Shown: one piece after another, positions 3,923 to 23,652 of the stretch
Layout: each line of letters starts with the position of its first letter
How positions within the stretch are numbered: position 1 is the first letter of the stretch
Assembly: GCF_002217655.1 (NCBI RefSeq)
Contig: NZ_NEWK01000002.1
Coordinates: 1,551,164 to 1,615,163, forward strand
Reading direction: 5' to 3'
DNA: 64,000 nucleotides
Origin: Geobacillus thermocatenulatus
GTDB lineage: Bacteria > Bacillota > Bacilli > Bacillales > Anoxybacillaceae
Notes under the pieces: generated by a model
Told to the model about the DNA's origin: nothing
Databases searched by the model: none
The model's input: the letters and a program-made list of their open reading frames with translations, nothing else
Made by a program: the position numbers and the translations under genes

Positions 3923-3940
3923 TGAAGGAGGATGGAAATC

Positions 3941-4687: not shown

Positions 4688-4688
4688 C

Positions 4689-5477
4689 ATGTCGTTTCTT
4701 CGCCTTCTGTCATCCGAATGGATAAAAACAAAACGCACAGCGATTCGGATGATGGTCATCATCACGCCAATCATTTATTCTCTCTTTATGGTATGGTATT
4801 TTTCGCACTACCGTACCTCTACGTTTTGGCAGATGAAAATCTATCAAGGATTTTTTGAAGTAATGGCCGTTTCCTTACCGATCATTATCTCCCTACTGAC
4901 TGGGCTGATGTCCTATCAAGAAGAAAAAGCAGGAAGTTTCATGAACATCTTGACCGGTCCTGTATCCAAAGTTCAATGGTATGTTGGCAAACTCACGCTG
5001 CTCATCTTTATTGCATGCGCGGACATCTTGCTAGCGACGATTCTCATGCTCTTTGGAATGAAATACGTACTCAAAGTGGCGCACATTCATTATCAGTTAT
5101 TTTTGCAAGGAGCCATGCTCTCCATCGTGGGCTCACTCATCCTTTTTTCTTTGCATCTGTTCATCAGCTTTGCCTTTGGAATGGGAGCCTCGATCGCAGT
5201 AGGAAGCGGCGGATTTCTCATTTCTGCCCTGATTGGCGCAACTTCCTTAGGTGATCACGTATGGAGCTATATTCCTTGGGCTTGGGCTGTTCGTCTCTCA
5301 CAATTTCCGATTCTTATGATGCCCGAAGTAAAGCAAACCTTGGGGGCGCAGTTATTAAGTTCCTTTTCGCTATCATTATGGGAAGGAATAGCCTATGCCC
5401 TTCTAAGCTTCATCATCGTCACCATCATCGGTTCGATCTGGTTTCATCGTTGGGAAGGAAATCAACCACATGAATGA
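4689..5477 (+). CDS. geoG: Lantibiotic immunity ABC transporter permease (LanG/MutG type)
   Basis: 262 residues from ATG 4689, with AAAGGAAG about 10 bases upstream; the longer frame from 4665 overlaps geoE and has no site. Roughly six membrane segments, with the family features of MutG/SpaG/NisG permeases: a charged N-terminus SSEWIKTKRTA followed by a hydrophobic helix, and the SYQEEKAGSFMNIL loop. It is the partner of geoE in the immunity pump. It is followed after 54 bases by the immunity lipoprotein. Confidence 0.8.
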   Translation: MSFLRLLSSEWIKTKRTAIRMMVIITPIIYSLFMVWYFSHYRTSTFWQMKIYQGFFEVMAVSLPIIISLLTGLMSYQEEKAGSFMNILTGPVSKVQWYVGKLTLLIFIACADILLATILMLFGMKYVLKVAHIHYQLFLQGAMLSIVGSLILFSLHLFISFAFGMGASIAVGSGGFLISALIGATSLGDHVWSYIPWAWAVRLSQFPILMMPEVKQTLGAQLLSSFSLSLWEGIAYALLSFIIVTIIGSIWFHRWEGNQPHE

Positions 5478-5531: not shown

Positions 5532-5966
5532 ATGAAAAACTCTATCTTACTCCTCATGTTGATTGGAATCCTCTTTATAGCAGGTTGTTCACTTGTCAGT
5601 AACTTAAAAAAGACAGCCACACAAAATATGGAGATCGATCGGAAATTACCAAAATACGAGTTGAACAAAGAAAATTTGCAAGAAATTCACTATCAAGGCC
5701 GAACGTACATGATTCAAGCAGCAAAAGTCGATCGGAATCAATTGAACAAACCGATCGGGAAAGTAGCGGAGACGATTACCATCAATGAGCATCATCAAAT
5801 CTTGAGTAAAAAAGAGCTGCGAAAGATCGAAGTCATTCCCGATCAAACGGATGAAAAACGAACTCACTTGAACTTTGGCTGGGTATACAGCATCAAAGGC
5901 GTAAACCCAGATGAAGAAGTAGCTGTTACGGTGAACCACCAATTTTTGATTGCTAAAAGAAAATAA
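5532..5966 (+). CDS. geoI: Lantibiotic immunity lipoprotein (SpaI/NisI-like)
   Basis: 144 residues with a clear type II signal: a hydrophobic stretch then lipobox IAGC, so cysteine 19 would be lipidated and the protein anchored outside the membrane. The remainder is charged (NLKKTATQNMEIDRK...), in the size range of SpaI (about 165). Such lipoproteins bind lantibiotic or shield lipid II. AAAGGAGG lies 8-10 bases upstream of the start. Similarity to SpaI is judged by size, lipobox and position as last gene of the FEG immunity operon; no sequence search was done. Confidence 0.72.
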   Translation: MKNSILLLMLIGILFIAGCSLVSNLKKTATQNMEIDRKLPKYELNKENLQEIHYQGRTYMIQAAKVDRNQLNKPIGKVAETITINEHHQILSKKELRKIEVIPDQTDEKRTHLNFGWVYSIKGVNPDEEVAVTVNHQFLIAKRK

Positions 5967-6059: not shown

Positions 6060-7478
6060 TTAATCAGATAGCTCCTTAATATAAAATTCAACCGTCGCTC
6101 CACCTTTTTCATTGTTGTAGGCCCAAATTTCACCGCCATGATGATTCACAATTCTTTTAGCAATATACAGTCCTAATCCAACATGATTTTTATACTGCTT
6201 ATCCTGGTAAAAAGGCTGGAACAACAAAGACGTATCGTTTTCTTTAAACCCCGTTCCTGTATCTGAACAGCGAAAATAGATTTTACACTCATTCCCCTCT
6301 TTTTCATCATAGACTTCCAACTTAATTTCTCCGCTTTTTGTAAACCTCAGGCTGTTGTATAAAATATTGTCCAACACTCTCATTAACATCGCTTCATCAA
6401 GTATGTAACGTGATTTTTGCAAATTCACATCAAAGCAAATGTTTATCGATTTTTGATGGTAAACCATTGTTGAGATCTCTAGTTTTTTCTCCTCAAGGAT
6501 TTGCCTTACATCCACTTCTTTTCCATTCAATGAGAAGTGGTCATTCTCCACTTTATAGAGCAACGACAAATTATCTGTCAACATGGTCATCTTCCCACAG
6601 TTTTTGCGAATAATCTCTAAATGGGGAGTGACATCAAAGTGGTCCAACTTTCTCAAATCTTGAATCAAATCAATTTGTCCTTGGATGACCGTTAACGGGG
6701 TTCTGATATCATGTGCGATCGATGATACCATCATTTTTCGTTCGTCATCGGTCTTTGCTAAACGTTCCACCATTTCTTTCAGTGCACTGATCATGGTATT
6801 AAAGGAATCCTGGATCTTGATAAACTCTTTTCTTTTCAACCCCGAGACTTGAAAATCAAAATTCCCGCTTGCAATGTGATCAGAAGCCTGGAGCAACAAT
6901 TTGACATTATGAAACAATGATTTGTACAGCCTAGATGTAAAGAAAATCAAATAGACAATAAAAAAGATCAACGGAGAAATAAACATCACAGCATAAATCA
7001 ACACGGCTTCGAAGCGATTTTGATTGTTAATGATGAACCCAAAAGGCGCTTTCAACACATATACCGCCTGAATGGCGTTATCATGCTTCAGGGGAATGAA
7101 CCGATACACATAGCTTCCTTTTACAATCTCACGGTTGATCGATTGACTAATATCCACTTGATCGTCTATAATTTCTCGATCACCATACAGATGCTTACCG
7201 CTGATGTCTACAACTTCTCCCTGTATCTTTTCACTGTAACGATGAATGGGAATTAATCTCCCCTTGAAAATCGCCTCTTCGTTTTCTTTCACCTTTTTTT
7301 CAATCAAATCCAAATCCTTCACGAAATAATTGGTCGGTTTCACCACATCGTTCGTGGTTAATGTCATAATCAAATAGATTACGCATAAATAGGTAACGGC
7401 CGAAGAGATCACTGTTGCCAACACTACCTTCACAACCAACAAGTAAAAATCTCGTTTGATTGTTTTATCGTTTTTCAT
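6060..7478 (-). CDS. geoK: Lantibiotic-responsive sensor histidine kinase (LanK)
   Basis: 472 residues. Two membrane helices (about 11-40 and 157-180) flank an extracellular sensor of ~115 residues, followed by a HAMP-like linker, phospho-acceptor His256 in SSIAHDIRTPLTV, and ATPase motifs (N-box LDNILYNSLRFTKSG, G1 CSDTGTGF, G2 VGLGLYIAKRIV). This is the SpaK/NisK layout, where external mature lantibiotic triggers autophosphorylation. It overlaps the response-regulator gene by 14 bases and is translated after it. Confidence 0.87.
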   Translation of the reverse strand: MKNDKTIKRDFYLLVVKVVLATVISSAVTYLCVIYLIMTLTTNDVVKPTNYFVKDLDLIEKKVKENEEAIFKGRLIPIHRYSEKIQGEVVDISGKHLYGDREIIDDQVDISQSINREIVKGSYVYRFIPLKHDNAIQAVYVLKAPFGFIINNQNRFEAVLIYAVMFISPLIFFIVYLIFFTSRLYKSLFHNVKLLLQASDHIASGNFDFQVSGLKRKEFIKIQDSFNTMISALKEMVERLAKTDDERKMMVSSIAHDIRTPLTVIQGQIDLIQDLRKLDHFDVTPHLEIIRKNCGKMTMLTDNLSLLYKVENDHFSLNGKEVDVRQILEEKKLEISTMVYHQKSINICFDVNLQKSRYILDEAMLMRVLDNILYNSLRFTKSGEIKLEVYDEKEGNECKIYFRCSDTGTGFKENDTSLLFQPFYQDKQYKNHVGLGLYIAKRIVNHHGGEIWAYNNEKGGATVEFYIKELSD

Positions 7479-8163
7479 TGCTCACATCCCATTTATAGCC
7501 GAGCCCATATAATGTTTGAATATAAGAGGTTTCTGGATCGACGTCCTTGATTTTTTTTCGAATATTTTTGATGCTTTCTGTAACCGTGTCTAACTGGCTG
7601 TCGGAGTCAATCCCCCATACTCGTTCAAAGATTCTTTCTTTGGAGAAAACGACCTTTTTATTGAGCATCAACAACTTCACAATCTCATATTCTTTTTTTG
7701 TTAACGGTAATTTCTTTCCTTTACAAAAGACTTCATTAGCCAAAAGATCAATCGTAATATTTTTAGAACTCAAAAGATATCTCTCGTTTGAACGAATCCG
7801 TTCTTCCCTTCTTAAATGAGAATCAATTCTCGCCTTTAACTCCTTTAAGCTGAACGGCTTGGTGATGTAGTCATCCCCACCGATCGCCAGAGCTTGAACC
7901 TTATCTTCCTCCAGCGTTTTAGCACTAACAAATACAATAGGGTAATCAACCCGATCACGAATGATTGTACACAGCTCCATTCCGTCAATTCCTTCCATCA
8001 TGATATCCAACACAATCAAATCAAAATCGTCGTTTATCATCTTCAACGCTTCTACACCGCTGTGGACCGTTTCTACCTGATAATGATGAAGCTCCAAATA
8101 TTGTTTAATGGTGCAGCAAATATCTTCATCATCATCAACGACCAAAATTTTCTTGTTATTCAT
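7465..8163 (-). CDS. geoR: OmpR-type response regulator (LanR)
   Basis: 232 residues from ATG 8163 (MNNKKILVVDDDED), preceded by GGGGGATC at suitable spacing; the frame is open up to 8193. The receiver domain has the acidic pocket DDDED, phospho-acceptor Asp53 in VLDIMM and Lys102 in TKPF; the C-terminal half is a winged-helix OmpR/PhoB DNA-binding domain ending LYGLGYKWD. By analogy with SpaR/NisR it would activate geoA, geoBTC and the immunity genes. A 340-base gap separates it from geoC. Confidence 0.87.
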   Translation of the reverse strand: MNNKKILVVDDDEDICCTIKQYLELHHYQVETVHSGVEALKMINDDFDLIVLDIMMEGIDGMELCTIIRDRVDYPIVFVSAKTLEEDKVQALAIGGDDYITKPFSLKELKARIDSHLRREERIRSNERYLLSSKNITIDLLANEVFCKGKKLPLTKKEYEIVKLLMLNKKVVFSKERIFERVWGIDSDSQLDTVTESIKNIRKKIKDVDPETSYIQTLYGLGYKWDVSNEKR

Positions 8164-8373
8164 CTTTTGATCCCCCATACAGTTGAATCGCATTTTAACC
8201 TATTCCATCCCCATATCATGGGGTAATCTCATAACACCGTTGCGTTGTTCATAGGTGCAATGTGAAGCTTTACTCTTTGTTGCTTTTTACTAAAAAATGC
8301 GCACGTCTTGAGTGACGCCCGGGTGAAAGACACCTCTTGTCTATGAACCTTTTCCAACATATTTGATCGATGA

Positions 8374-8422: not shown

Positions 8423-8504
8423 ACGCCAAGGTATGATGGAGCCCCCTCTGCGGCTTGCCTCTAACCATCGATCAGTCGGCTTTTCCATTGTATATAAACA
8501 ACAT

Positions 8505-9812
8505 TTAAACTTCAGATAATAAAAATGCACAATCCCAAGGCGTTTTTTTCGAGTTTTGTATAGCTAATATCGTCAATAAAATTCCCGCTGTTCCATCGAT
8601 TAGTCCCACATAATCATAATATTTCGTGCTTCCTTCGCTCTCCTCAATATTTTTAAAGCCAAAAGGGAATTCCTCATTATAAAATTTTATTATATCATCG
8701 ACTAATTTGCAGGCGGCTTCCTTAAAATCGCTGATATTCGTTTCTTCATAAAATCTGTTGCATATATACGCAACTCCCGATAAACCATGACAGAAGGAAG
8801 GAGAAAAAATGTTGTAAAGCCGTTTGCTTGCCAGTTTCATTCCGCTGACAGCACAATCAATGTATGATTGATTATTTAGAGTTTTACCTGCTATAAGTAA
8901 CGAATAAGCAACACCAGGCGTGCCATAACACCAGGCATCCCTTGTATCTTTGTTTAGGACAGAGCCATTTTTGTATTCCTCTAGAGAAACATGAGTCCCC
9001 CAATAAGAGCCATTTTCATCTTTAATTTGAAACTTCATAAGAAAATCAGCTATTCTTTGAATGCATTCATCTTGCCCATCTACGTAAATATTCAGTTTTT
9101 TAGCATTGCACAAGACAATGAGTAAAGCAGGTATACCGTGAGACAACCCAATGTTAAAGAAACCCGATGGCCATTTTCTCCTTTCAGTGTCTGAAAAAGC
9201 ATTCTTTGGGGGAATATACCAGCCAGGAACGTTGATATCCTCCATTTGTTTATCTTGAGATAAATCTATAATGTATTTTAAGATTAACGTAATACTTTTT
9301 TTCATCTCTTGCGGAAATAATAGGCAGTAGCTCGCTATACCCGCTACTCCCGAAATAGCATCGTAATCGTCCATATTCGGATACGGTTTCTGTTTCAAAT
9401 ACTCGATCATTTCTCCGATTCTTTCTTCGATGGCTTGATTAATCGTTGAGATAAAGTTTTGATACCTTTTTCCTCCCTTGGATAAACATACTGCAGCAAG
9501 GCCGATCCCTGCCAATCCGGTAAACATGGATAAAGAAGGGAAGCCGTGTTGATTCATTTGTTCACCGATTTTTTTGATGTATTGATGCCCTAATAAATCC
9601 CAACCTTCATCCGGATATTGTTCGCCCAATTCGCCGTACAGCGCACATAAGGCTGGTAACCCATGGCTTAAACTTAACTCATTAAACGGATTTATCGTCT
9701 TGTTTCCAATTTTAATATAATTACTTGGGTGATTGACGATTCGCTTCATATTCTCATAATCCGACAATTTTTTCGCAAGATTACAAACCAGCGCTTTCAT
9801 TGAGATGCTCAT
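8505..9812 (-). CDS. geoC: Lanthionine synthetase C-like cyclase (LanC)
   Basis: 435 residues, typical of SpaC/NisC. It carries the zinc ligands of the family: Cys295 in AWCYGTPG and Cys341-His342 in SFCHGLSG, with repeated alpha-toroid GxxG motifs such as LSHGLPAL, AGIASY and SHGIPALL. It adds cysteine thiols to dehydrated Ser/Thr of the prepeptide, forming (methyl)lanthionine rings at the membrane. The first codon overlaps the end of geoT by 32 bases; GAGGAG stands just upstream of ATG 9812, with a second ATG at 9800. Confidence 0.92.
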   Translation of the reverse strand: MSISMKALVCNLAKKLSDYENMKRIVNHPSNYIKIGNKTINPFNELSLSHGLPALCALYGELGEQYPDEGWDLLGHQYIKKIGEQMNQHGFPSLSMFTGLAGIGLAAVCLSKGGKRYQNFISTINQAIEERIGEMIEYLKQKPYPNMDDYDAISGVAGIASYCLLFPQEMKKSITLILKYIIDLSQDKQMEDINVPGWYIPPKNAFSDTERRKWPSGFFNIGLSHGIPALLIVLCNAKKLNIYVDGQDECIQRIADFLMKFQIKDENGSYWGTHVSLEEYKNGSVLNKDTRDAWCYGTPGVAYSLLIAGKTLNNQSYIDCAVSGMKLASKRLYNIFSPSFCHGLSGVAYICNRFYEETNISDFKEAACKLVDDIIKFYNEEFPFGFKNIEESEGSTKYYDYVGLIDGTAGILLTILAIQNSKKTPWDCAFLLSEV

Positions 9813-11610
9813 ACTCCTCCTCGTTTTTCAAAGCTTCCAATTCATACATTCTTCTGTATAACTCATTCGTAGCTAACAATTCCCAATGCGTACCTATACC
9901 GACAATTTCACCATCATTCATTACTACGATTTTATCGGCAAGCTTAGCTGTTGATAGACGATGTGAGATAAAGATACCAATTTTATCTTTTGTCATATTG
10001 ATAAACATATCAATGACTTCTTTCTCGGAAATGGGATCCAGTGCCGAGCTAGGTTCATCCAATATATATACGGATGCATCCCGAAATAACGCCCTAGCAA
10101 TCGCTACTTTTTGCCACTGTCCTCCCGAAAGCTGAACACCGTCGACAAACCATAAACCAAGCTGAGTATCTAAATCCTCGATAAAATTTACTCTCGCCCT
10201 CTCCATGGCTTGTTTTAATTCTCCGTCACGATCAATGCGCGTAATATCGCCAAACCCCACGTTTTCCCTTAATTTCAATTCATACTTCACAAAATCTTGG
10301 AACAACACGGCAATGTTTTTTCTCAATTGTTCCGTATCCAAATCATTGATGGACACACCATTATAAAAAATGCTATCCTCATCGTGTTCATACAATTTCA
10401 ATAAAAGTTTTATAAGGGTGCTTTTTCCTGATCCATTTGCACCGACGATGGCTATTCTTTCCCCTTTGTTGATGTCGAGGTTAATATTTTTCAATACTAC
10501 TTTTGGTTTCGTTGGATAACGAAACGTTAAATTTCTTATCTTAATATTTTCGATTTTGTCTATCCCTGATACGAATCGATCTCCTTTGTCCAATACTTCT
10601 TCGTCTAACCCCAAAAATTCAAACAGTTGGTTGATATATAAATTGTTTTTATACAGGGAATGGATGATATTCAATATTTTCTTAGAGTTGCTAGAAATTA
10701 AGTTCAAGGCCTGAATAAGCCCTACGACGTGACCTATAAGGATTTCACCTGCCAACGCCGAAATGATGATGATAACAAGTACGGTATTGATACATATTTG
10801 TTCAACGAGCTCAAAAATAAATGTAAAAACCGTTCTTCTTTTAAAAAGATGGATATCCTGCTCGACGAACGTTTTGTTGATTTCTTTAAATTTGTTCAAA
10901 ATATAGCCTGCCAAGTTATATATTTTGACTTCTTTGAACGTGTTGTCTCTTGTCATTAGGTAAGACAAATACCATGATTTCCTTTTTTCCGGTGCACGCA
11001 ACCAACTAACATTAAACTCTCTTTGGCCAATCTTGAAAAAATAAAAAGAAAAAACGAGTGGTATGAAGATTAATATAATCAACACCCACGGTTTCCAATG
11101 GATCAGAATCATCATCGATGAAAAAAAGGTTACAATCGCCGATATTGCACCTAATATGGATAAAAACACTTCAAATGGTTTATACGGCGTTTCATTCTGT
11201 ACTCTTTGCAACATATCATAAACTTCGGCATCCTCAAAATGCTGTAAAGACAATCTTGTACACTTGTCCATGATTTGCAAATTAAGTTTGTAGTTGATGA
11301 GAGTTTGAAACTTATTTTGGTAATATTCCATGAAACTGCTGATGATCTCGCTGAGTAAAACAGCAGAAATATAAAAGATCAATGCCGATATAATAATATG
11401 AATATTTTGGGACCCGATTGCATTCAACAAGTTTTGCGAACCGAGCAATGTAACAATCGGTGCGCCTCCCATTAATAAGCTTAAGAAAATAATGATAAAA
11501 AAACTTTGTTTGTCGACGTTCTTTATAAGAACAAGCGTCTTGGGAACTATCCTTATTGATTTCACAATATCTTTGATAGTAACGTGATCATCATACTCTT
11601 TTATATTCAT
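9781..11610 (-). CDS. geoT: Lantibiotic exporter, ABC transporter (LanT)
   Basis: 609 residues fusing a six-helix membrane domain (first ~330 residues) to an ATPase domain with Walker A GANGSGKST, signature VQLSGGQWQKVAIARAL, Walker B VYILDEPSSALDP and H-loop ISHR. It lacks the N-terminal C39 peptidase domain seen in class II lantibiotic exporters, as expected for SpaT/NisT, which export leader-bearing peptide. The leader must then be cut by another protease. The ribosome site is weak (GGGGATTGAAA). A 165-base gap from geoB contains short inverted repeats. Confidence 0.92.
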   Translation of the reverse strand: MNIKEYDDHVTIKDIVKSIRIVPKTLVLIKNVDKQSFFIIIFLSLLMGGAPIVTLLGSQNLLNAIGSQNIHIIISALIFYISAVLLSEIISSFMEYYQNKFQTLINYKLNLQIMDKCTRLSLQHFEDAEVYDMLQRVQNETPYKPFEVFLSILGAISAIVTFFSSMMILIHWKPWVLIILIFIPLVFSFYFFKIGQREFNVSWLRAPEKRKSWYLSYLMTRDNTFKEVKIYNLAGYILNKFKEINKTFVEQDIHLFKRRTVFTFIFELVEQICINTVLVIIIISALAGEILIGHVVGLIQALNLISSNSKKILNIIHSLYKNNLYINQLFEFLGLDEEVLDKGDRFVSGIDKIENIKIRNLTFRYPTKPKVVLKNINLDINKGERIAIVGANGSGKSTLIKLLLKLYEHDEDSIFYNGVSINDLDTEQLRKNIAVLFQDFVKYELKLRENVGFGDITRIDRDGELKQAMERARVNFIEDLDTQLGLWFVDGVQLSGGQWQKVAIARALFRDASVYILDEPSSALDPISEKEVIDMFINMTKDKIGIFISHRLSTAKLADKIVVMNDGEIVGIGTHWELLATNELYRRMYELEALKNEEEYEHLNESAGL

Positions 11611-11775: not shown

Positions 11776-14700
11776 TTAATTTTTTAACACTAATCCATGA
11801 GCTTTAATATACTTTAATGCATATAACGTATGGGCAACTAATGTACGGATTTTCTTTTCAAATTCTCGATCAATGCCGAATAGCCTGTTACAGTGTAAAT
11901 GAATCACACTGTCTAAAATAGATAATTCAGAAGAAGCTTCGAGACCGTCCTGGATCTTGCTTGCATACTCTTTTATGCTTCTGTTTCTTTGGTTCAAAAC
12001 GTTTAATAATAACATCCCCTCATCAGTGTCTCTTAACCCTTGCCAATCATTATCCGTATTACAAACTTTCATGTAAACAGATCGATTCTTTTGAAAATCT
12101 TCACGATAGTCTTGTTTGTTGACTTGCTGTTGCAAGAAATCCAATTGACTTTCATAATTTAGGCCGAACTGTTCCATATAATGAATGATGGAAACCATTC
12201 CGATCACTTCATCGCTAAATTGAATATGTTTCAAACGTTTTAACTTTAATATGTCCTCTACTACTATGCTATCGAAGAAAAATAAGTTTTCTGCAAGATC
12301 GATCAATTCTGTTCCACCATAACGCTCAATTTCTCTTTCATAGCAGTCGATGGAAAAACGACTCACCACTCTTTTGTCGATTAACGTTCGCAGCCATTGT
12401 TTCATATCCGGATAAATCTGCAGAAGTTTCTCTTCACTGGCATTCAGCCTTAATCTTATATGTTGCTCCGGGTCGGCATACCGTATAAAGAAATACTTTT
12501 CAATTTCTCCTTTAGCCAATTTTTCGCGACAATATTCTGAAAGATAAAAGGCGATGAAATCATCCGCTCTAGAATGGACCCCGTACAATTTTAAATAAAG
12601 CCAATTTTCAAAAGGCAACTTGACTCTTATATCTGAAAAACTTGGGATATGATTTGATTTTTTCGCTTTGGCATACCATTGACGATTTTCTTGTTTTACT
12701 TTCACTAGCGGAATGACCAATTCACAAACATACTCTTTTTCGGCATCATCTTTAACTAAATGAAGATCAGCCTCTTCATAAGAACTTAGAATAATGTTTC
12801 CGTATCTATTGTTAAATTCGTGATGAAGAATTCTTAAACAATTTTCATCCTCTGTATTCAACAAAATCCGATTATCTGCAAAAGTCAAATAAACATATTT
12901 CGGCACATCGTAATCAGAACAAAATTTTTTAAAGCGTTTTTCAAATTCCGTAAAACTAATTTTGTCGTTTGTTTTAATAATCTTATTGATCACCCATTTT
13001 CGCGGTGCTATGACGAAATTTTTGTATTCAATTGCCGGTATGTAAGCATAGTCTTGAAAGATTGTATCCCAAGGGAAATTACACCAAATTTTTTTGCCAT
13101 CTAAGCTTATATCATACAAAAAACGAATCGCATTCGGGGCATTTTGGGTATTCAACATATTATTCATAGTAATAATCAACTTTTTATTTAGTGTTTTGCT
13201 TTTGGCATAAAACATATCGTTCTCTATGCCGATCAAAATATCATTTAAGCTCAATCGATGATATTCATCTTTGCTGTTGTTAGTAAACAACGCAAGTTCG
13301 TATTCGCTGTTATGAATATTTCTTGTCACATTGGCATGTCTCGTTTCATTTGGCAAATAAACAAGCTCACAAGTTACATACTCGCCACTATCATTATTCA
13401 AGTTCAACATTTCTTTATTTAACGTTTCGAAGAGTTTCTCTTCCCCTTCCATCATATAAGAAAACCTTCCAAAACTTTTCCCCGCATGGGTCGATCCTAA
13501 ATTAGGACCAATATAGTATTTGAAATGATTGTGCTCAAGATCTTGTTCCGAGTCACATTTTATAATGACGTTAATGTCTAATGAATCCGGGATGCTTTGG
13601 TAATCATAATCATCTAGACCCAATTCTTTTATCTCGTCTTCTGTTATTGTTATACTTTTTTTGTCTTTAACCGCCTCGATATATTTATGAAGAAAATATT
13701 CTCTTAACTGCTCATCAATCAATTGATGGGGTACACCTACAGCGAGTCTTGCGTTTTTCGGGTTTGTATAATCCATAGGTGCTCCTATACCAAGATCATT
13801 ATCAAGCATTTCTAGTAAAGGAACTTCTCTGTCCACCCCATATTTTTCGATAAATTCTTGCTTGTACCTCGAAAGTGGAGAATCTGTTTGTTGATAGGTC
13901 ATCGAAAAAGGTAGAAGTATGTGCATTAGTTCATTTACATCTTTTATCACTTGCTTGTTCAGTTTCTTTTCTTGTAAGTTTAACTTCATATCAACTTGTA
14001 ACACATTTTTGGTATCGGCTAACTTTTTCATTTTTTTATGTAACTCTTTATATATTTGCTCCCCTTCTCCTAACGGAGTCATGGTATATGTGCGAATCTT
14101 TTGTTGAATATCAATTAATTCGTTACTCCACTCTTCTATATGGCTTTCTTTCAATCGCTTTATCAGATAATCAAGCTGATCCATTACTGTTAATGGTGGG
14201 CGGAGATTGGAAATTAAAAATTCGTTTTCTATTAGTTGCTTGAGAAAACGTTCAATTTTTTCCTCACTCGTATTTGGAAATTGTTTTATTAATTCTTTTT
14301 TTAATGTTTGGTAATGGATCAAGTGACGAGCTAATTCACACGTGATTTTAAAAGGAAGGGTGACTCTGACGCTGATTTCATTGACTCGCTTGTCATCGTC
14401 TTTTCGTGTCGAATGTAGTAAATATGCCCGTTCTCCTTTTAAAAATATACTGTCATTCACCGTGAACCATAATTGCTCATATTGTTCTTGTTCCAATTTC
14501 TTTACAATCTTCATCAGCCATTCTAAATCTGGCCTAGCAAATTTCTTATATTTATTCGTTCCATATCTTATTGATGTATTTTCATCCGTGTATTCACCAA
14601 AGTCTACTCCTGCAAAAAGACCAAATGGCGTTGGTCTCGTGCTAATTCTTATCAAATACTTATAAATGGCTTTGATAAAATAATCGTATTTTTTTATTTC

Positions 14701-14916
14701 CTTGCCGTTGCAAAAATCAATCATTTTATTATATAAACTTTTACTCGCTACTAAGATACTCTCTCTAAATACAGGGTTATGACAAATTTCCAACAGACGC
14801 TCTTTCATTTCTCCCTCAGTCAATTTTTGATCAAAAAATCTTAAATAGTTGTCTACTGATAAAACCGGTGTTCGAATCATAAACGTATCGATGTTTTTAA
14901 AGATAAGATCTTTCAT
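11776..14916 (-). CDS. geoB: Lantibiotic dehydratase (LanB)
   Basis: 1046 residues, close to SpaB/NisB. The N-terminal ~700 residues match the glutamylation domain (RPTPFGLFAGV, RKWVINKI) and the C-terminal ~300 residues match the elimination domain (FFIRYADPEQHIRLRLNA, SIDCYEREIERYGG). It dehydrates Ser and Thr of the GeoA core using glutamyl-tRNA. The start at 14916 follows a GGAGGC site. Its neighbour upstream is a 318-base noncoding stretch and an IS630 relic that separates it from geoA. Confidence 0.94.
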   Translation of the reverse strand: MKDLIFKNIDTFMIRTPVLSVDNYLRFFDQKLTEGEMKERLLEICHNPVFRESILVASKSLYNKMIDFCNGKEIKKYDYFIKAIYKYLIRISTRPTPFGLFAGVDFGEYTDENTSIRYGTNKYKKFARPDLEWLMKIVKKLEQEQYEQLWFTVNDSIFLKGERAYLLHSTRKDDDKRVNEISVRVTLPFKITCELARHLIHYQTLKKELIKQFPNTSEEKIERFLKQLIENEFLISNLRPPLTVMDQLDYLIKRLKESHIEEWSNELIDIQQKIRTYTMTPLGEGEQIYKELHKKMKKLADTKNVLQVDMKLNLQEKKLNKQVIKDVNELMHILLPFSMTYQQTDSPLSRYKQEFIEKYGVDREVPLLEMLDNDLGIGAPMDYTNPKNARLAVGVPHQLIDEQLREYFLHKYIEAVKDKKSITITEDEIKELGLDDYDYQSIPDSLDINVIIKCDSEQDLEHNHFKYYIGPNLGSTHAGKSFGRFSYMMEGEEKLFETLNKEMLNLNNDSGEYVTCELVYLPNETRHANVTRNIHNSEYELALFTNNSKDEYHRLSLNDILIGIENDMFYAKSKTLNKKLIITMNNMLNTQNAPNAIRFLYDISLDGKKIWCNFPWDTIFQDYAYIPAIEYKNFVIAPRKWVINKIIKTNDKISFTEFEKRFKKFCSDYDVPKYVYLTFADNRILLNTEDENCLRILHHEFNNRYGNIILSSYEEADLHLVKDDAEKEYVCELVIPLVKVKQENRQWYAKAKKSNHIPSFSDIRVKLPFENWLYLKLYGVHSRADDFIAFYLSEYCREKLAKGEIEKYFFIRYADPEQHIRLRLNASEEKLLQIYPDMKQWLRTLIDKRVVSRFSIDCYEREIERYGGTELIDLAENLFFFDSIVVEDILKLKRLKHIQFSDEVIGMVSIIHYMEQFGLNYESQLDFLQQQVNKQDYREDFQKNRSVYMKVCNTDNDWQGLRDTDEGMLLLNVLNQRNRSIKEYASKIQDGLEASSELSILDSVIHLHCNRLFGIDREFEKKIRTLVAHTLYALKYIKAHGLVLKN

Positions 14917-15234
14917 AAATCAAGCCTCCAACTCAATGATTCTCAATCTTCCGTAAATTGCGTGACTCTTTTTACAAGATCTGCACCCAATTACAGTGCT
15001 GAATTTGTCCTGAACCACGTTGCAAAGTAGGTATGGAGGGACCTGTATTCATGATTTGAGTGATTTCTTCCGAATGTTAACTGTCCTACAGCCGGATAAA
15101 ATGTTTCTCGATTTTTTGACATTGACTGAATTCGTATTCTTTAGTTGATGATGTTGCGCTCACCTCAACACTTATTAGGTTGCTAGTAGTAATTATGATA
15201 TTTATTACAATTTCTTCATTTATATAGTGGGTTC
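14917..15234 (-). other. geoB upstream region without a supported gene
   Basis: This holds the GGAGGC ribosome site of geoB. Several short frames occur, the longest with a start being 25 codons; none has a ribosome site or a recognisable leader. It is the probable remains of the original geoA-geoB junction, now cut off from geoA by the IS630 relic. I cannot identify a promoter with confidence, although geoBTC would need one if read-through from geoA is blocked. Confidence 0.4.
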
Positions 15235-16551
15235 TTAAGCACAAGCTTCACTTGATATTCTAGAGAGCCGGTGTTTTAACTGAAAATACCGCTTTCCAGC
15301 GATATTTTTTAAATTGAGAAACATGCAAAAACGGCTTGGGCGATATCGTTTCGATCTTTGTGAAACACATTGGCAATGACAGTATCTTTCAGCCATTTCC
15401 ACAAGCGTTCGATCGGGTTCCGTTGCGGTGAATACGGAGGAAAGTAAATGAAGTGAAAACACTATCCTTCTTCCCGCAAAAATTCTCTCACCATTTTGGT
15501 GTGATGAATTCGAGCGTTATCCAGCACCAAGACGACGAGTCGGTCCGAGTAACGCTCTTTGAGAACTCGCAGGAAATCTAAAAACGTTGTGGCATTGGCT
15601 GCCCCTGCTTGATGAAGAACCGTTTCGCCATCGTGGACGTTGACCGCGCCAAACAGCGATATGTGAGCATGATGGCCGAACGTAGGCACTTGCTTTTGAC
15701 GGCCAACCTCTGACAATGTCGTACGCAACACATGATACGACCGGATATGCGTTTCATTCGATGTACAACAGGATGAAATCCGAATCCATTAAGTTTTTTT
15801 ATCAGGTCCATTTGTTTCTCGAAGTTTTTTTGCCGGTCCGGATCTCCTTTCGCCAACGTGTAGGTCGTCCGGGTCCAAGAAAGCCCTTTTCGATGCAAGA
15901 GCTTTCGTAATGCTTCGCGGGAAATGGATATGCTGTAATGGTGGTACACATAGAAGGCCGGTGAATTAATGAAAAAGGCAACTCATCCCAACTCTTTTTC
16001 AATTAGAGAAACTTTGTCAGATCTGTTCTCCTTGCTGATCAAATACCGCTGGTTTGAGCAAAAAACTTGTTTTTCACCAGCCTTATAGGATTGAAGGATG
16101 TTCGTATTCCACGCCGAAGCGATGTCCCAGCCCAGCTCCACAGGTGTCGTGGTCAACACGAGGTGTGTTTGATCTCTTCCTGCTGTTCTTCGGTGAGAAA
16201 CGGCTACCAGGGGCAAAATCCCGATGAAGCAGGAGTTCAAGGCCGCCTTCGTTAAAAAGCGACACATAATGGGAAACGGTTGGGCGGCACACATTGACCA
16301 TGGAAGCAACCTCTCTGCCCAAATAGCCTTCCATGACAAGGCGGACTGCCATCACACGTTGGCGGAGATGAGCGTTTTTGATCTTCCGTTCCTGCTTGCG
16401 GAGTTTCCGAGGCGTCCATCCGTGATCATGGGTGATTTTCAGCCGTTTCATGTCTGATTCCGCTCCTTTTCCATGCTTTTCCTTAGGAGCAGTATAACCG
16501 GAGTGGGCACCACTTATGCGAAGGTTAACTTTTCAATGAGCATGTATATAG
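15235..16551 (-). pseudogene. IS630-family transposase, broken by frameshifts and a stop
   Basis: Read from 16451 downwards the protein begins MKRLKITHDHGWTPRKLRKQ, has a helix-turn-helix (YLGREVASMVNVCRPTVSHYV), then continues in shifted frames (LRKLLHRKGLSWTRTTYTLAKGDPDRQ; VVLVLDNARIHHTKMV). After an in-frame stop near 15462 it gives FPPYSPQRNPIERLWKWLKD, the classic IS630 DDE C-terminus. At least three frameshifts and one nonsense codon make it inactive. The right end near 16551 is shared with a second relic at 58278-58406. The left end is not resolved. It lies between geoB and the nearer geoA copy. Confidence 0.85.
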
Positions 16552-16814: not shown

Positions 16815-16963
16815 CTCCTTTTCTCCCTTGACGAGTGTCGATCAAGGGTGAATCCAAGCGTTAAATCCCCTTTATTTTCTTTGGAAAGTTGTCTTGTGAT
16901 CAATTCTCTTGGAATTTTCCAACTCTTCCATGGTTCAATATGGATGTTGAGAATTATAAGTTA

Positions 16964-17135
16964 TTAGCATCGAATGCAAGAGTTACAAGATACACAAGAA
17001 TTTTGCGTTAAGCACATTAAGATGCCTGTGATGCAACCCGGGGTACAAAAGAGATTTACTTGTAATATTAGGTTGTACAATGTTGTCCTGTTTTTTGACA
17101 ACAATGTCCAAATCGAAATCATCCAACTTCGCCAT
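16964..17135 (-). pseudogene. geoA: Geobacillin I-like precursor, frameshifted copy
   Basis: The start ATG (17135-17133), GGAGGG site, leader and downstream sequence equal the intact copy at 22061-22231. One extra T in the core (CTTTTG instead of CTTTG) after residue 29 turns SLCTPGC into SLLYPGL and ends translation early, losing six of seven core cysteines. With the base removed the core would be identical to the intact copy. This is the copy closest to geoB, so the ancestral geoA-geoB neighbour appears to be dead, unless the extra base is a sequencing error in the T-run. Confidence 0.9.
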
Positions 17136-17170
17136 TCTTCATTCCCTCCTTTCCATATGTTGATATTTAT

Positions 17171-17239
17171 CATTAACTACTTGATGAAAGATGTATAAAG
17201 ACATCATAGATTCCATCTTTTTTCACCAAGCAGTTAATG
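17171..17239 (-). promoter_or_regulatory. Leader hairpin upstream of geoA copy 1
   Basis: Same structure as at 22267-22335: two arms of 23 and 26 bases that pair with a three-base bulge and two G-U pairs, enclosing about 20 bases. It lies 36 bases upstream of the geoA start. Confidence 0.65.
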
Positions 17240-17387
17240 TAAAGCTAAAAAGCTCCTTTTTCACATTTAGAATAGATCGAAATTCTAAGATTTTTCTAAT
17301 GTATTGGTATATATTTTTTATAATTTTCTTTAATTTATTGTGATTATAATATGGGATTGCCTCCATAGCCATCAAGTTAAGAAAACA

Positions 17388-18394: not shown

Positions 18395-19048
18395 TCATTC
18401 TGCCGTAATATGGGTCATACCCGTAATCACCCCTTCATTCATCGAATATACTTCATGGCATAATGACTGAATGTCCACCTTGTTGTGAGACGTCAACAAA
18501 ATGGTGCAGCCTCTTTTGTTTTCCTCCCGAATAATTTGGTACACTTGGTCCACCGATTTTTCATCCAAAGCATTCATCGGTTCATCGAGCAACATCAGCT
18601 GCGGTTTCTCCATGATGCATTGTGCGATGGCCAGTCTTTGTCTCATTCCAAGAGAGTACGCTTTCACCGGCCTTTTATCATGCGGATTCAACCCCACTCG
18701 CTCGATCGCCTCTTTTACCTCACGTTCGCCGATTTTGTTCTGAATCATGGCTAAAAAATGCAAATTATCGAATCCTGAGTATTGTTCAAGGAAACCTGGT
18801 TTTTCCAACAAAACAGAAATATCGCTCGGAAATGATACATCTTGGTGCAACGTCTGGCCAAATACCGCCACCGTGCCGCTGGACGGCTTCACAAGTCCGC
18901 TGATGACTCGGAATAACATCGTTTTTCCCGACCCGTTCGGCCCGACAAATCCATAAATCTTTCCTCTTTCCAACTCTAAGTTGATATTGCGCAAAACTTC
19001 CCTTGCTTTTATCGTTTTGGAAACATTGGATAAGACGATCGCCTTCAT
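18395..19048 (-). CDS. ABC transporter ATPase of the inserted cassette
   Basis: 217 residues: Walker A GPNGSGKTM near residue 38, signature AYSLGMRQRLAIAQ, Walker B LMLLDEPMNALDE and H-loop LTSHN. It belongs to the CcmA/BcrA-like group of small export or immunity ATPases. It is the last gene of a minus-strand run starting at 21872, 13 bases after the third membrane protein. With those proteins it probably forms one transporter. It differs clearly from GeoF, so it is not a duplicate of the immunity pump. Confidence 0.85.
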   Translation of the reverse strand: MKAIVLSNVSKTIKAREVLRNINLELERGKIYGFVGPNGSGKTMLFRVISGLVKPSSGTVAVFGQTLHQDVSFPSDISVLLEKPGFLEQYSGFDNLHFLAMIQNKIGEREVKEAIERVGLNPHDKRPVKAYSLGMRQRLAIAQCIMEKPQLMLLDEPMNALDEKSVDQVYQIIREENKRGCTILLTSHNKVDIQSLCHEVYSMNEGVITGMTHITAE

Positions 19049-19061
19049 AATTGAAAACCTC

Positions 19062-19763
19062 CTACATATAATCCGCGTTCTTCACTCTCTTGATCGTCCA
19101 ATACCCGAACGCAACGATCGACAAGAGCTCCACCATCAACGCCGACCAGAACATCGAGCTGCTCCGCACGAGATCCGCCATGCTGTAGTACAAAGGAATA
19201 AAAGGCGTTGGCATCTTGACACCCACAAAAAACAAAGCGAGAATGACAACATTCGCCAAGTGATGGGTTGCATACACGTTCAACAACATCCACACGCTGG
19301 CGTGCCAATACAAATTCACGGCGATGCCCACGAACATGAGCACGAGCGAACGGTCAAACGAAAACGCCATATGCGACACAAAGAGACCGAAGCCGCCAGC
19401 GATCAAAAACACCGACAAGACATACACCAATGTAAATAGAACACCTGCCAGCAGCCTAGCCATCGTGTACGACGTCGTATCCCTCAACAAAATGAACAGT
19501 TTATGTTCAAAATATTTATCCCGCTTTTTCCAAACGATTTGGAGCAACACCACATAGCCGAAGCAAATCATCAGCCAATACATCCAATTCGAGATCGTCA
19601 CCGCTCCGAATAAGCGGGAGAACAACTCCGATAGGCATTGGGAAGAAAACGCCTCTGACCAGCTGGACATCAAAGTGCCCAACAGTGGGAACAGGAGGCA
19701 GGTGATGACAATTCTTTTGACATCCATTTTGATCAGGGTAAACTCCAAATGCATCGGTTTCAT
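19062..19763 (-). CDS. Cassette membrane protein 3 (ABC-2-like permease)
   Basis: 233 residues, six hydrophobic segments, for example ITCLLFPLLGTLMSS, WLMICFGYVVLLQIVW, LLAGVLFTLVYVLSVFLIAGG and NVVILALFFVGVKM. A cytoplasmic loop KKRDKYFEHKLFILLRDTTSYTMARLL lies between helices, as in ABC-2 permeases. No specific family is recognised. It overlaps the preceding gene by 4 bases (ATGA type), which implies coupled translation with the other cassette genes. Confidence 0.75.
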   Translation of the reverse strand: MKPMHLEFTLIKMDVKRIVITCLLFPLLGTLMSSWSEAFSSQCLSELFSRLFGAVTISNWMYWLMICFGYVVLLQIVWKKRDKYFEHKLFILLRDTTSYTMARLLAGVLFTLVYVLSVFLIAGGFGLFVSHMAFSFDRSLVLMFVGIAVNLYWHASVWMLLNVYATHHLANVVILALFFVGVKMPTPFIPLYYSMADLVRSSSMFWSALMVELLSIVAFGYWTIKRVKNADYM

Positions 19764-20500
19764 AAAAGATCATCCTGAACATAGTAGTTTTTTTGGCTTG
19801 ACGAAAGGCAAATGGTATAGACCAGCACCAGCATCATCGCAATGAGAACTAAGATTGTCCAAACGGGAGCCGTCTGTTCACTTATGTAAAACAAATAAGG
19901 GAGCATGTGCACAGTGAACATATCCAATACAGCCAGTATGATGACGGCAGCGAAGGCGAAAAAGCGGTTCCCCCCAAAATCAATGAATGCGACAAACAAC
20001 AATCCGTATATCGCGGTGACGAAAAAGTACATGACAAGAAAATAGAGAAACGAGCTTTTATCCCCACTATGCGGCACGTACAAAAAAGCCGCATGGGCGT
20101 TTGGCATATTAGGATAGATGACGTATTTCACAAACATTGTACATAATCCGCCTACTGCGGCAACCCAAAGAGACACGCCCCCCGCCAGAACGACGACCAG
20201 CAACGCTTTATGAAGACCGATTTGCCTCCGCGTGCGGTATCTTCTTAGCACCACCCACGCATTGGTTTGAAGCGCGGAACCTAAAAGAAACAAAAAAGCA
20301 GGGAGATGAAAAAATTCATACCGATAAAGCAAGATAAAATCTTTGAGGCTGTGCCACTTCCCCACCACCACCATTCCTAGCGGCAAGATGCCCGCCACCA
20401 TCAACAAAGCCATGACGCCCAAAATCATTTTGATGACGGTTCGATGCAACAGCAAATCTTGCCAAACAAAAAAAACGTTCTGTCTAGAGAACATCTTCAC
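19760..20500 (-). CDS. Cassette membrane protein 2 (ABC-2-like permease)
   Basis: 246 residues with about six membrane helices (MILGVMALLMVAGILPLG, HLPAFLFLLGSALQT, ALLVVVLAGGVSLWVAAVGG, FLVMYFFVTAIYGLLFVAF, FAFAAVIILAVLDMF, ILVLIAMMLVLVYTICL). No conserved catalytic motif. It overlaps the upstream membrane gene by 17 bases and the downstream one by 4. The function is inferred only from its place between another membrane protein and an ABC ATPase. Confidence 0.72.
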   Translation of the reverse strand: MKMFSRQNVFFVWQDLLLHRTVIKMILGVMALLMVAGILPLGMVVVGKWHSLKDFILLYRYEFFHLPAFLFLLGSALQTNAWVVLRRYRTRRQIGLHKALLVVVLAGGVSLWVAAVGGLCTMFVKYVIYPNMPNAHAAFLYVPHSGDKSSFLYFLVMYFFVTAIYGLLFVAFIDFGGNRFFAFAAVIILAVLDMFTVHMLPYLFYISEQTAPVWTILVLIAMMLVLVYTICLSSSQKNYYVQDDLL

Positions 20501-21365
20501 TTTTCTTCACTCCATATGAAAATACCGCTACCGCAATCAACAATTGGAGGACAAACACGATGACGATTTTCCAATAGGACAATCCTTCCACTGGTTGTGA
20601 AGGGATTAAGAAATTAAACGGATCCCAAGCCAATTGGTTGGTGATAGTCAGCGCCGCCCAACAAACCATATAAATGATTTGTGGCATCAAAGTAATCAAA
20701 TACCGATTTTTCAACAACAAGGAAAATCCTAACCCAAGGCAGACGTAGCCGCTGGCAAACAATCCGCCAATGATATAATACGCGAGAACATACCAATAAG
20801 GGGAGATCTCCAATAAAGGAGAAAAAAGGCTTTTCTTTTCCCCTTCAAACGAATTGTCCGGCAACGGCAACGTGCCATTGACCAATTGCCGATATGCCTG
20901 GGAAAAGCTCGAATAATCCCAATGGTTGGTCAAAAGGTTGACGAGCACGACGCCAAAAAGAAGAGGAAGGAGAAACAAGAAAAACGCGCTGATATAAGAA
21001 AACAAAAATTTCCCCCAGTAATAAGCGCTTCTTCCCATCCGTGTCAATTGATAATGAACATTTCCGCTCTTTCGCTCACGATCAATCGAATCCACCAATG
21101 GAATCGACAACAATAATGGAAAAAGGAAGTAATATAGAGATGAAAATACGTTAAAGCGGAAGCCTCCTAGACCAACCCATTCAAGGTGAGGCGATGCCAA
21201 GGCGAAAACATTTGGATTGTCGTGGTAAATTCGTTCAAGCAACTGCACATTTTCACGATAATCTTTCACCCCCAACACGACGGCGCCGATGACAAGCAGC
21301 AACAGGCAGGCTGCGCTGATGTAAAAGTTCCTATTTTTCAAAAGTTTGATCAATTCTATATACAT
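20484..21365 (-). CDS. Cassette membrane protein 1 (ABC-2-like permease)
   Basis: 293 residues. An N-terminal helix (FYISAACLLLLVIGAVVLG) is followed by a large extracytoplasmic loop and five more helices. The stretch SIPLVDSIDRERKSGNVHYQLTRMGRSAYYWGKFL is typical of ABC-2 permeases, where a cytoplasmic loop follows the second helix. It may belong to the DUF2705-type group found beside similar secreted proteins, but that is a recollection. It follows the secreted-protein gene by 117 bases. Confidence 0.75.
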   Translation of the reverse strand: MYIELIKLLKNRNFYISAACLLLLVIGAVVLGVKDYRENVQLLERIYHDNPNVFALASPHLEWVGLGGFRFNVFSSLYYFLFPLLLSIPLVDSIDRERKSGNVHYQLTRMGRSAYYWGKFLFSYISAFFLFLLPLLFGVVLVNLLTNHWDYSSFSQAYRQLVNGTLPLPDNSFEGEKKSLFSPLLEISPYWYVLAYYIIGGLFASGYVCLGLGFSLLLKNRYLITLMPQIIYMVCWAALTITNQLAWDPFNFLIPSQPVEGLSYWKIVIVFVLQLLIAVAVFSYGVKKSEDVL

Positions 21366-21482
21366 ACTATCATCTCCTAATTCTTCTGTTAAGGACGGTC
21401 TTCTTTGTGATATTGAAGAAGACCGCCCCGACCAAGAAAACCTCTTTCTTGTCCAAGTTGACTGAACATACCTATAAATCGA

Positions 21483-21872
21483 TCAATTGTCGGGATAAAA
21501 TTTGCCTGCGATGTCAACTGTAACGTAAGTGAAGGATGCATTTTCCGCCATTAATGAAACTTTTTTGCCAACAGCACTTTGGTCGACAGTGAAATAACGC
21601 GTGTCATTATCGGTTACATTCAGCGCGGTTGGCGACACTTTCGTGGAACCTTGCTGAATCCACATGTTTGCTTTATAATCGGCGCCCACAACCGAATTTT
21701 CCACTTTACTTTTACTGTTTGTCGCTTTATTGGCGCTTGCTAATTCCGTATCGCCTTGAAAACGAGGGAGAACCCCAGCATACGTAACATAAGATGCGGC
21801 GCTGACTCCCCCTACCACAATGAATGAGATAAAAGCAAGCAAAGTAGTAACCATTTTAAGTTTTTCCTTCAT
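21483..21872 (-). CDS. Small secreted protein heading the ABC cassette
   Basis: 129 residues with a Sec signal peptide (KEKLKMVTTLLAFISFIVVGG, cut probably after VSAA). The mature part of about 100 residues has no cysteine and alternates short polar and aromatic strands (YKANMWIQQG, KVSPTALNVTDNDTRYFTV, KKVSLMAENASFTYVTVDI), suggesting a small beta-rich domain. It vaguely resembles DUF2712-type proteins. It could be a secreted effector or bacteriocin whose immunity or export uses the four genes downstream. The geoA copy 2 repeat begins 48 bases upstream. Confidence 0.7.
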   Translation of the reverse strand: MKEKLKMVTTLLAFISFIVVGGVSAASYVTYAGVLPRFQGDTELASANKATNSKSKVENSVVGADYKANMWIQQGSTKVSPTALNVTDNDTRYFTVDQSAVGKKVSLMAENASFTYVTVDIAGKFYPDN

Positions 21873-22060
21873 GATTCGATCCCCTCTCCCCTAATAAATT
21901 TTGAAAACGCAGGATCGTCCTCCTTTTCTCCCTTGACGAGTGTCGATCAAGGGTGGATCCAAGCACTAAATCCCTTTTATTTTCCTTGGAAAGCTGTCTT
22001 GTGATCAATCATCCTAGAATTTTCCAACTCTTCCATATTCCAATTAATAATTATAAGTTA

Positions 22061-22231
22061 TTAGCATCGAATGCAAGAGTTACAAGATACACAAGAATTT
22101 TGCGTTAAGCACATCAAGATTCCTGTGATGCAACCCGGGGTACAAAGAGATTTACTTGTAATATTAGGTTGTACAATGTTGTCCTGTTTTTTGACAACAA
22201 TGTCCAAATCGAAATCATCCAACTTTGCCAT
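22061..22231 (-). CDS. geoA: Geobacillin I-like lantibiotic prepeptide (intact)
   Basis: 56 residues. Leader of about 23 residues MAKLDDFDLDIVVKKQ...QPN contains the F(N/D)LD box recognised by LanB and LanC of the nisin group. The core begins ITSKSLCTPGC, continues ITGILMCLTQNSC and ends VSCNSCIRC: seven cysteines and nine Ser/Thr, room for seven (methyl)lanthionine rings. From memory this differs from geobacillin I only at core residues 1 and 15 (Ile for Val). GGAGGG lies 8 bases before the ATG. Modification by GeoB and GeoC and export by GeoT follow from the cluster. It is 7.1 kb from geoB. Confidence 0.95.
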   Translation of the reverse strand: MAKLDDFDLDIVVKKQDNIVQPNITSKSLCTPGCITGILMCLTQNSCVSCNSCIRC

Positions 22232-22266
22232 TCTTCATTCCCTCCTTTCCATATGTTGATATCTAT

Positions 22267-22335
22267 CATTAACTACTTGATGAAAGATGTATAAAGACAT
22301 CATAGATTCCATCTTTTTTCACCAAGCAGTTAATG
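22267..22335 (-). promoter_or_regulatory. Long hairpin upstream of geoA copy 2
   Basis: On the minus strand, CATTAACTGCTTGGTG plus AAAGATG pairs with CATCTTT plus CATCAAGTAGTTAATG, giving about 23 pairs with a 3-base bulge and two G-U pairs, and a ~20-base loop (TCTATGATGTCTTTATA region). The inner loop carries TCT triplets and a TATACA that might serve as operator and -10 of a GeoR-driven promoter. It could equally be a mRNA leader structure. Both geoA copies keep it. Confidence 0.6.
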
Positions 22336-22413
22336 AGCAAGCTGAAAAACTCCTTTTTCACATTTAGAATAGATTGAAATTCTAAGGTTTTTCTAATGTG
22401 CCGGTATATATTT

Positions 22414-23652
22414 GGTTCATCACCAAAAGATGTACTTGCACCTGTCATGAAAGTATGTTAGCTGTTTCTAGCCGAACCCGCAGTGCAAAACGCTGGATAT
22501 TTCGGTATCCGTATCCCCGACGTTTCATCAGCTTGATCTTGTTATTCGTTCCCTCCATCTTCCCATTCGAATAAGGAGACAATATGCATGAAATGATTTC
22601 ATCTGTTCGTTTGACAAGTGCTTTTGCGATGGCACGAACAGCGGAACAAGGACAAAACAAGTATCGATGAATCCAAGCGTTCTGCCACTTCTGCACCGTT
22701 TGGCGTTCCTCCTCGGTGAGTTTCTCGGGGCACTGGGTCAAGAAGCGGCAAACATACCGAACATGCCCATGTTTCTTGCCCTCTTTTCCTAAGGATTTGC
22801 GGCATCGATCCAACGCTTCTGTAAACAACTGAATCACATGAAAATCATCGACCACATGCTTCGCTTCCGGACACATCCCTTGAATGGCTTTTTTCATCGC
22901 TGGAGCCAAATCGCTCACGACATACTGAACAGAATCAGACACATGAGCCAACGCACGTCCAATGGCTTCCTCGTTCTTTCCTGCTTCAATGGCATACACT
23001 TCTCCCGTTTCGGCATCCATGACCGCCACTCCGTAGTCATGTCCTTTTCGAAACGCAAACTCATCGACACAAACTGCCTTTGGTTGGATGTCATTCGATA
23101 GGAAGGAAGGGGCATGGGTATAAAACCAACGTTCAACGGTCGTGTAAGGAAGCTGGAGCATTCGAGCCACCGCCTGAATGGAGGTTCCGATGCAACATTG
23201 CGCTGCCCATTGCTGAAACGCATCCGTCGCTACACTTCGAGGGGAAATTCCGGGATAAGAAGTGCTGAATGTCATGCCACACGTGCCACAACGTCTACGC
23301 TCCACAGGGAGTTCCACCCAAAAGATGCCGATCCGTTGAGCATACCCATGCATCCATTGCTTCTTTTTGCCTGTCATTTTGATCGTACGCTTCAAGCAGA
23401 CAGGACATAACGGGCATTGTTCGGTGGGAGAAAGTTCGAAAATCCAACGTTCTTCTTCTTTTCGCACCTTTTGAATCAAAACATCTGGTAAATCGATGAG
23501 TTCTTTGATAAACTGAGCGTACATGCGAATTTTCCTCCAATGGGTTGGCTTGGTCACCTTTACCATACAGGAAAATTCGCATTTTTTGTACCCTCTATTT
23601 TCTCTATGCATACCTATCTTAAAATCTCAAGTACAACTTGTGGTGAAGAGCC
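22414..23652 (-). mobile_element. ISL3-family insertion sequence
   Basis: 1239 bp bounded by imperfect inverted repeats: left GGTTCATCACCAAAAGATGT, right (complement) GGCTCTTCACCACAAGTTGT, both continuing with ACTTG. The outer GG(C/T)TC resembles known ISL3 ends. The flanking octamers are ATATATTT and AAAAATTT, so there is no exact 8-bp target duplication, which suggests rearrangement after insertion. It carries a single intact transposase gene. Confidence 0.85.
22445..23524 (-). CDS. ISL3-family transposase
   Basis: 359 residues from ATG 23524 (MYAQFIKELIDLPDV); the frame extends to 23611 without a better site. It has an N-terminal zinc finger (CPLCPVC...CGTCGMTF), a helix-turn-helix region (SIQAVARMLQLPYTTVERW), and the DDE core with VCVDEFAFRKG, VSDLAPAMKKAI and EGTNNKIKLMKRRGYGYRN. 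The family acts by cut and paste. No frame break is visible, so the element may be active. Confidence 0.9.
   Translation of the reverse strand: MYAQFIKELIDLPDVLIQKVRKEEERWIFELSPTEQCPLCPVCLKRTIKMTGKKKQWMHGYAQRIGIFWVELPVERRRCGTCGMTFSTSYPGISPRSVATDAFQQWAAQCCIGTSIQAVARMLQLPYTTVERWFYTHAPSFLSNDIQPKAVCVDEFAFRKGHDYGVAVMDAETGEVYAIEAGKNEEAIGRALAHVSDSVQYVVSDLAPAMKKAIQGMCPEAKHVVDDFHVIQLFTEALDRCRKSLGKEGKKHGHVRYVCRFLTQCPEKLTEEERQTVQKWQNAWIHRYLFCPCSAVRAIAKALVKRTDEIISCILSPYSNGKMEGTNNKIKLMKRRGYGYRNIQRFALRVRLETANILS

Follow-up and report, generated by a model that had tools for sequence, protein, structure and literature searches.

The 64,000-nucleotide stretch of Geobacillus thermocatenulatus DNA analyzed here (the window) very probably carries a working structural gene for a class I lantibiotic, the peptide predicted as Z-geobacillin. 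This gene, geoA1, is part of a mosaic locus whose second precursor copy, geoA2, is a pseudogene. Chemically, the peptide brings nothing new. Its setting is less expected: a further precursor copy is frameshifted, and the locus includes an additional transporter cassette that many relatives retain alone, although they are not producers. The features of the locus are listed in Table 1.

Table 1. Features of the geo locus (positions in the window)
Feature	Position	Strand	Description
geoF	3176..3922	+	Immunity ABC ATPase; TIGR03740 above cut-off
geoE	3932..4687	+	Immunity permease; TIGR03732 above cut-off
geoG	4665..5477	+	Immunity permease; TIGR03733 above cut-off
geoI	5532..5966	+	Immunity lipoprotein with lipobox, related to NisI/SpaI
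geoK	6060..7478	-	Sensor histidine kinase
geoR	7465..8193	-	Response regulator
geoC	8505..9812	-	LanC cyclase of 435 aa with zinc-site motifs
geoT	9781..11610	-	LanT ABC exporter, 609 aa, intact
geoB	11776..14916	-	LanB dehydratase, 1046 aa, intact
IS630-family element	15200..16460	-	Decayed, between geoA2 and geoB; approximate ends
geoA2	16964..17135	-	Second copy of the precursor gene; one extra T shifts the frame in the core
geoA2 remnant ORF	16983-17135	-	50 aa, one Cys
Direct repeat, geoA2	17283..17299	-	TTAGAA-N5-TTAGAA, upstream of geoA2
c217	18395..19048	-	ABC ATPase; best NCBIfam match a lantibiotic-protection ABC, below cut-off
c233	19062..19763	-	Predicted membrane protein
c246	19760..20500	-	Predicted membrane protein
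c293	20484..21365	-	Membrane protein, weak ABC2_membrane_4
c129	21483..21872	-	Predicted secreted, 129 aa, no Pfam/NCBIfam family
Duplicated geoA unit	21920..22413	-	Promoter region, geoA and 3′ flank; partner 16815-17316, 92.6% identical
geoA1	22061..22231	-	Z-geobacillin / geobacillin I-type precursor, intact; residues 1-23 leader, 24-56 core with seven Cys
5′-UTR hairpin	22252..22336	-	Predicted, before geoA1 ribosome-binding site; geoA2 counterpart 17150-17240
Direct repeat, geoA1	22380..22396	-	TTAGAA-N5-TTAGAA, upstream of geoA1; candidate LanR box
ISL3-family element	22414..23611	-	End ~18 bp upstream of geoA1 direct repeat

The geoA1 precursor and Z-geobacillin

The translation of geoA1, MAKLDDFDLDIVVKKQDNIVQPNITSKSLCTPGCITGILMCLTQNSCVSCNSCIRC, is unbroken over 56 residues plus the stop, and a Shine-Dalgarno-like GGAGGG is located 5′ of the ATG. 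The protein scores 74.6 bits against NCBIfam TIGR03731 (gallidermin/nisin family; cut-off 29.3, E 4.6e-21), 25.9 bits against NCBIfam NF038155 (FDLD; cut-off 20) and 26.2 bits against Pfam Gallidermin (cut-off 21). The core is 33 residues in length; it contains seven cysteines and the CTPGC motif. A preliminary description of the window had proposed an intact 56-codon geobacillin I-like precursor, with both the FDLD-box leader and the seven-cysteine core complete. Translation and family models agree on both points; we observed no frameshift in geoA1, and its similarity to the nisin group is clear. The same description stated that such a short gene would be missed. The 56 codons are right; however, the statement was overstated, because current NCBIfam models catch geoA1 and the HTA426 copy has already been annotated. 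In a tblastn search of the window, the geoA1 protein matched its own copy (56/56) and one further, broken place. Identical 56-residue precursors are present in G. proteiniphilus 1017, Parageobacillus thermantarcticus M1 and Anoxybacillus sp. J5B_2022.

Compared to the geobacillin I-type precursor of G. thermodenitrificans DSM 465 (locus L019), the geoA1 precursor is 91% identical and carries five substitutions: F4L, D18N and V19I in the leader, plus Val-to-Ile changes at core positions 1 and 15. The two core isoleucines had been recognized correctly when the peptide was described as a two-residue variant of geobacillin I, but the three leader differences were left out. Exactly these five differences (L4, N18, I19, core I1 and I15) distinguish Z-geobacillin of Geobacillus sp. 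ZGt-1 from geobacillin I (PMC6165006), and Z-geobacillin is 100% identical to lanthipeptide I of G. kaustophilus HTA426 (PMC6165006). Because the differences match residue for residue, the geoA1 peptide is already known in silico; the deduced peptide is not new, having been predicted as Z-geobacillin in 2010–2018. The identity rests on the residues described in the paper, which indicate no difference in peptide sequence; our paper search found no paper printing the literal peptide strings. Z-geobacillin and HTA426 lanthipeptide I also share the 56-residue precursor, the 33-residue core, the seven cysteines and the lack of LanP (PMC6165006), and their clusters, like that of the window, have transposases between the genes (PMC6165006). 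The computed average mass of the geoA1 core is 3310.0 Da with eight dehydrations and 3292.0 Da with nine, the same two masses that antiSMASH gave for Z-geobacillin (PMC6165006).

Like nisin, subtilin and gallidermin, the system combines an FDLD leader box and a Ser-Leu-Cys-Thr-Pro-Gly-Cys core N-terminus with LanB/C/T, LanRK and LanFEGI. Different from that group, the window cluster encodes no LanP; different from nisin, which has five cysteines, geoA1 has seven, and its C-terminal ring region is not the same.

Machinery and control region

The genes for LanB, LanT, LanC, LanR, LanK, LanFEG and a NisI/SpaI-like LanI are all located at 3.2–14.9 kb of the window. Thus, every modification, export, immunity and sensing class that had been listed as nearby is present, whereas LanP is not nearby. 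We found no LanP-type protease in the 64-kb window, and the only two S8 protease hits of the genome lie outside it. The absence of LanP from Geobacillus clusters has already been published (PMC6160750, PMC6165006); a cluster-encoded LanP is usual for nisin, but since LanP was reported absent for geobacillin I, this absence is not defining for the geobacillin I type. The LanB protein contains the RxTPFG, GRF, RYGG and HxxxNR motifs, aligns end to end with the solved LanB 9g04 and also matches NisB. LanC retains the NisC motifs RDAWCYG, CHG, LSHG and DYD, and the geoI lipoprotein is similar to the NisI and SpaI structures. Truncation or breakage of LanB, LanC or LanT was considered and rejected, all three being full length.

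The family score and FDLD leader, the LanB/LanC motifs, the exporter, the two-component system and LanFEG/LanI are those of a class I lanthipeptide, and the prediction of a complete geobacillin I-like precursor in geoA1, backed by a full set of machinery genes, is supported. The DSM 465 geobacillin I system is of the same class, with the same ring-forming residues and the same machinery, and its LanB, LanT and LanC proteins are 99% identical to those of the window. Different from the window, DSM 465 has a single geoA and lacks the c129–c217 cassette, and no IS separates its geoA from geoB.

The perfect TTAGAA-N5-TTAGAA repeat has two matches in the whole window, one before each geoA copy; it also precedes the intact geoA in DSM 465, P. 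thermantarcticus and genome G002. Between the repeat and the ribosome-binding site of geoA lies one long, conserved predicted hairpin, with z-scores of -5.4 in DSM 465, -3.5 for geoA2 and -2.4 for geoA1. Pairing in the stem is retained at several variable positions, and one pair is altered on both sides. The element may equally be a dyad operator. An Rfam scan of 14.8–25.5 kb gave nothing near the gathering score, the geoA hairpins included.

By homology to the geobacillin I and nisin systems, GeoB would dehydrate the core Ser/Thr residues, GeoC would close up to seven thioether rings and GeoT would export the peptide; the leader would be removed by a protease encoded elsewhere in the genome. 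The product would bind lipid II via its N-terminal rings, GeoI and FEG would protect the producer cell, and GeoRK may autoinduce through the candidate TTAGAA-N5-TTAGAA repeat.

The second precursor copy and the mosaic locus

About 5 kb from geoA1, the second copy, which was absent from the preliminary description, does carry a frameshift. One extra T was inserted within a short T run at codon 29–30; it shifts the frame and leaves only the remnant ORF with a single cysteine. geoA2 is a frameshifted pseudogene. The extra base is absent from its orthologue in G. proteiniphilus 1017, where the gene is intact, and both geoA copies are intact in Anoxybacillus J5B_2022.

For HTA426, Marsh et al. described two precursors, GK0286 and GK0294, which are 91% identical to one another and 79% identical to that of NG80-2 (PMC3091789). 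Alkhalili and Canback listed HTA426 lanthipeptide II with 50 residues and 79% identity to geobacillin I (PMC6165006); GK0294 appears in print as GK0924 (PMC6165006). The geoA2 ORF is identical to geoA1 at 31/33 residues and to the DSM 465 precursor at 27/33, and one added mismatched column would turn these values into 91% and 79%. Judged from the published lengths and identities, HTA426 'lanthipeptide II' is probably the same allele, the geoA2 frameshifted pseudogene. If it is a pseudogene and not a second lantibiotic, the literature would be corrected on this point.

The segment 5695–14959 shares 99.07% DNA identity with G. thermodenitrificans DSM 465, whereas the flanking OAHS–gatB chromosome shares 88.4%. 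The DSM 465 homology breaks off abruptly a short way upstream of geoB; for the geoA unit, identity to DSM 465 is no more than 77–80%. The geoA1–cassette segment is >99.9% identical to that of G. proteiniphilus 1017, where the gatB flank is 96.4% identical, and >99.9% identical to that of Anoxybacillus J5B_2022. As the machinery block stands at 99% against a background of 88%, the cluster is a horizontally assembled mosaic. On these identities, the 5695–14959 block is a recent transfer, and recent horizontal exchange of modules explains the identity pattern. The locus combines a transferred BTCRK block with a geoA-plus-ABC-cassette module.

Across the genus boundary, the geoA–cassette–geoA–geoB region of Anoxybacillus sp. 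J5B_2022 (locus L016) is 99.9% identical to the window; contamination of that assembly is the alternative to transfer. In addition, one ~500-bp insertion at 17389–17890 has no counterpart in G. proteiniphilus 1017 or Anoxybacillus J5B. It resembles part of a region with a transposase-like ORF, which is also found at L053:4779–5811.

The c129–c217 cassette and alternatives to a working geoA1

Between the geoA copies lies one five-gene ABC cassette (18395–21872, minus strand), with the intact geoA1 at its head. Against TIGR03740, c217 scores 159 bits (cut-off 309.75), short of LanFEG-type immunity, and a profile search of c233, c246 and c293 gave no immunity-family match. The cassette was rejected as the canonical LanFEG of the cluster; the FEG genes proper and LanI occupy 3176–5966, with FEG above the cut-offs. 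Because the c129 structure model is weak (mean pLDDT 58.8) and gave no Foldseek match at E ≤ 0.001, we claim no function for c129. One c129 paralogue of 27% identity is encoded elsewhere in the same genome, likewise with an ABC ATPase and membrane proteins nearby. The region L053:5958–11614 of this genome contains a paralogous system, in which a 148-residue secreted c129-like protein is followed by an IS110-like gene, a pair of membrane proteins and an ABC ATPase.

Relatives that have no geoA upstream carry a TATAAT-like / TTATAATAT-like box and a GGACCGGTCC palindrome ahead of c129. In the window, the 3′ flank of geoA1 replaces this native promoter-like region at 21900–21925 (minus strand), joined at the TCC of the palindrome. 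As the junction is inside the native promoter-like region, c129 is left without its own in the window, and it probably depends on transcription from geoA1. Dependence of the cassette on geoA everywhere was rejected, since several relatives carry it behind a different upstream region with the TATAAT-like box and GGACCGGTCC.

Among 14 Geobacillus species genomes, the cassette (marker c293) is present in nine, mostly without lanB/lanC; geoA was found in 4/14, lanB and lanC in 3/14, and full-length LanE in 6/14. None of the compared genomes has a shortened gene between c217 and c293, these two included. Their pairwise dN/dS of about 0.04–0.33 among geoA-less genomes is consistent with purifying selection there. 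In genome G005, the 5′ end of c129 is cut off. Genome G002, without detectable lanB or lanC, contains one intact orphan geoA (L048, 7839–8006) plus the cassette. The distribution of the cassette fits a putative immunity role, and an independent secreted-protein system fits as well. One tentative and rather doubtful reading is that the cassette may be an unrecognized, independently inherited peptide-resistance module, which geoA duplication captured behind a lantibiotic promoter in Z-geobacillin-type strains; it would persist in Geobacillus species whose biosynthetic genes were lost or had never been present, giving resistance without production. With the cassette in 9/14 genomes versus 3/14 for lanB/lanC, such resistance in non-producers can be tested in thermophiles.

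Three observations count against a working geoA1: LanP is missing from the window; geoB is ~7 kb away, with the cassette, the pseudogene and IS remnants in between; and the geoA1 promoter region has one ISL3 element immediately on its upstream side. Owing to the geoA1–geoB separation, expression of the precursor together with its machinery must rely on separate promoters. It is conceivable, though unlikely, that geoA1 is intact but silent, the IS insertions and the separation from geoBTC marking a relic cluster that makes no peptide. The ISL3 end ~18 bp from the geoA1 direct repeat and the IS630 remnant in front of geoB point in that direction, as do the frameshift in geoA2, the copy nearer geoB, the broken lanB of HTA426 in the same arrangement (PMC3091789), and the loss of geoA/B/C altogether in several relatives. 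However, every machinery ORF is full length, LanB and LanC share 99% identity with their DSM 465 counterparts, and geoA1 retains an intact direct repeat and ribosome-binding site; the same ISL3–geoA1 junction is found in G. proteiniphilus 1017, with the genes intact.

There is a somewhat smaller chance that the main role of geoA1 is now to provide the promoter and leader cistron for an immunity-giving c129–c217 cassette, with production secondary or lost. The duplication junction that leaves c129 without its own promoter-like region would suit such a role; genome G018 retains the leader and the cassette although the geoA core is deleted, and the cassette genes are seemingly under purifying selection in geoA-less genomes. 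Yet four genomes share an identical core, which would not be expected of a sequence under no constraint, and the function of the cassette is putative; being absent from DSM 465, the cassette is not needed for geobacillin I. Although the ORF is short, a chance match of the geoA1 reading frame has practically no probability, because 56/56 identical copies occur in other Geobacillaceae genomes, across genera, and the E-value to the curated family is 4.6e-21.

For a working geoA1, the reading that we prefer, the comparison with HTA426 is informative: its lanB was reported to be frameshifted (PMC3091789), whereas that of the window is intact, and the present strain looks like a more complete candidate Z-geobacillin producer than HTA426.
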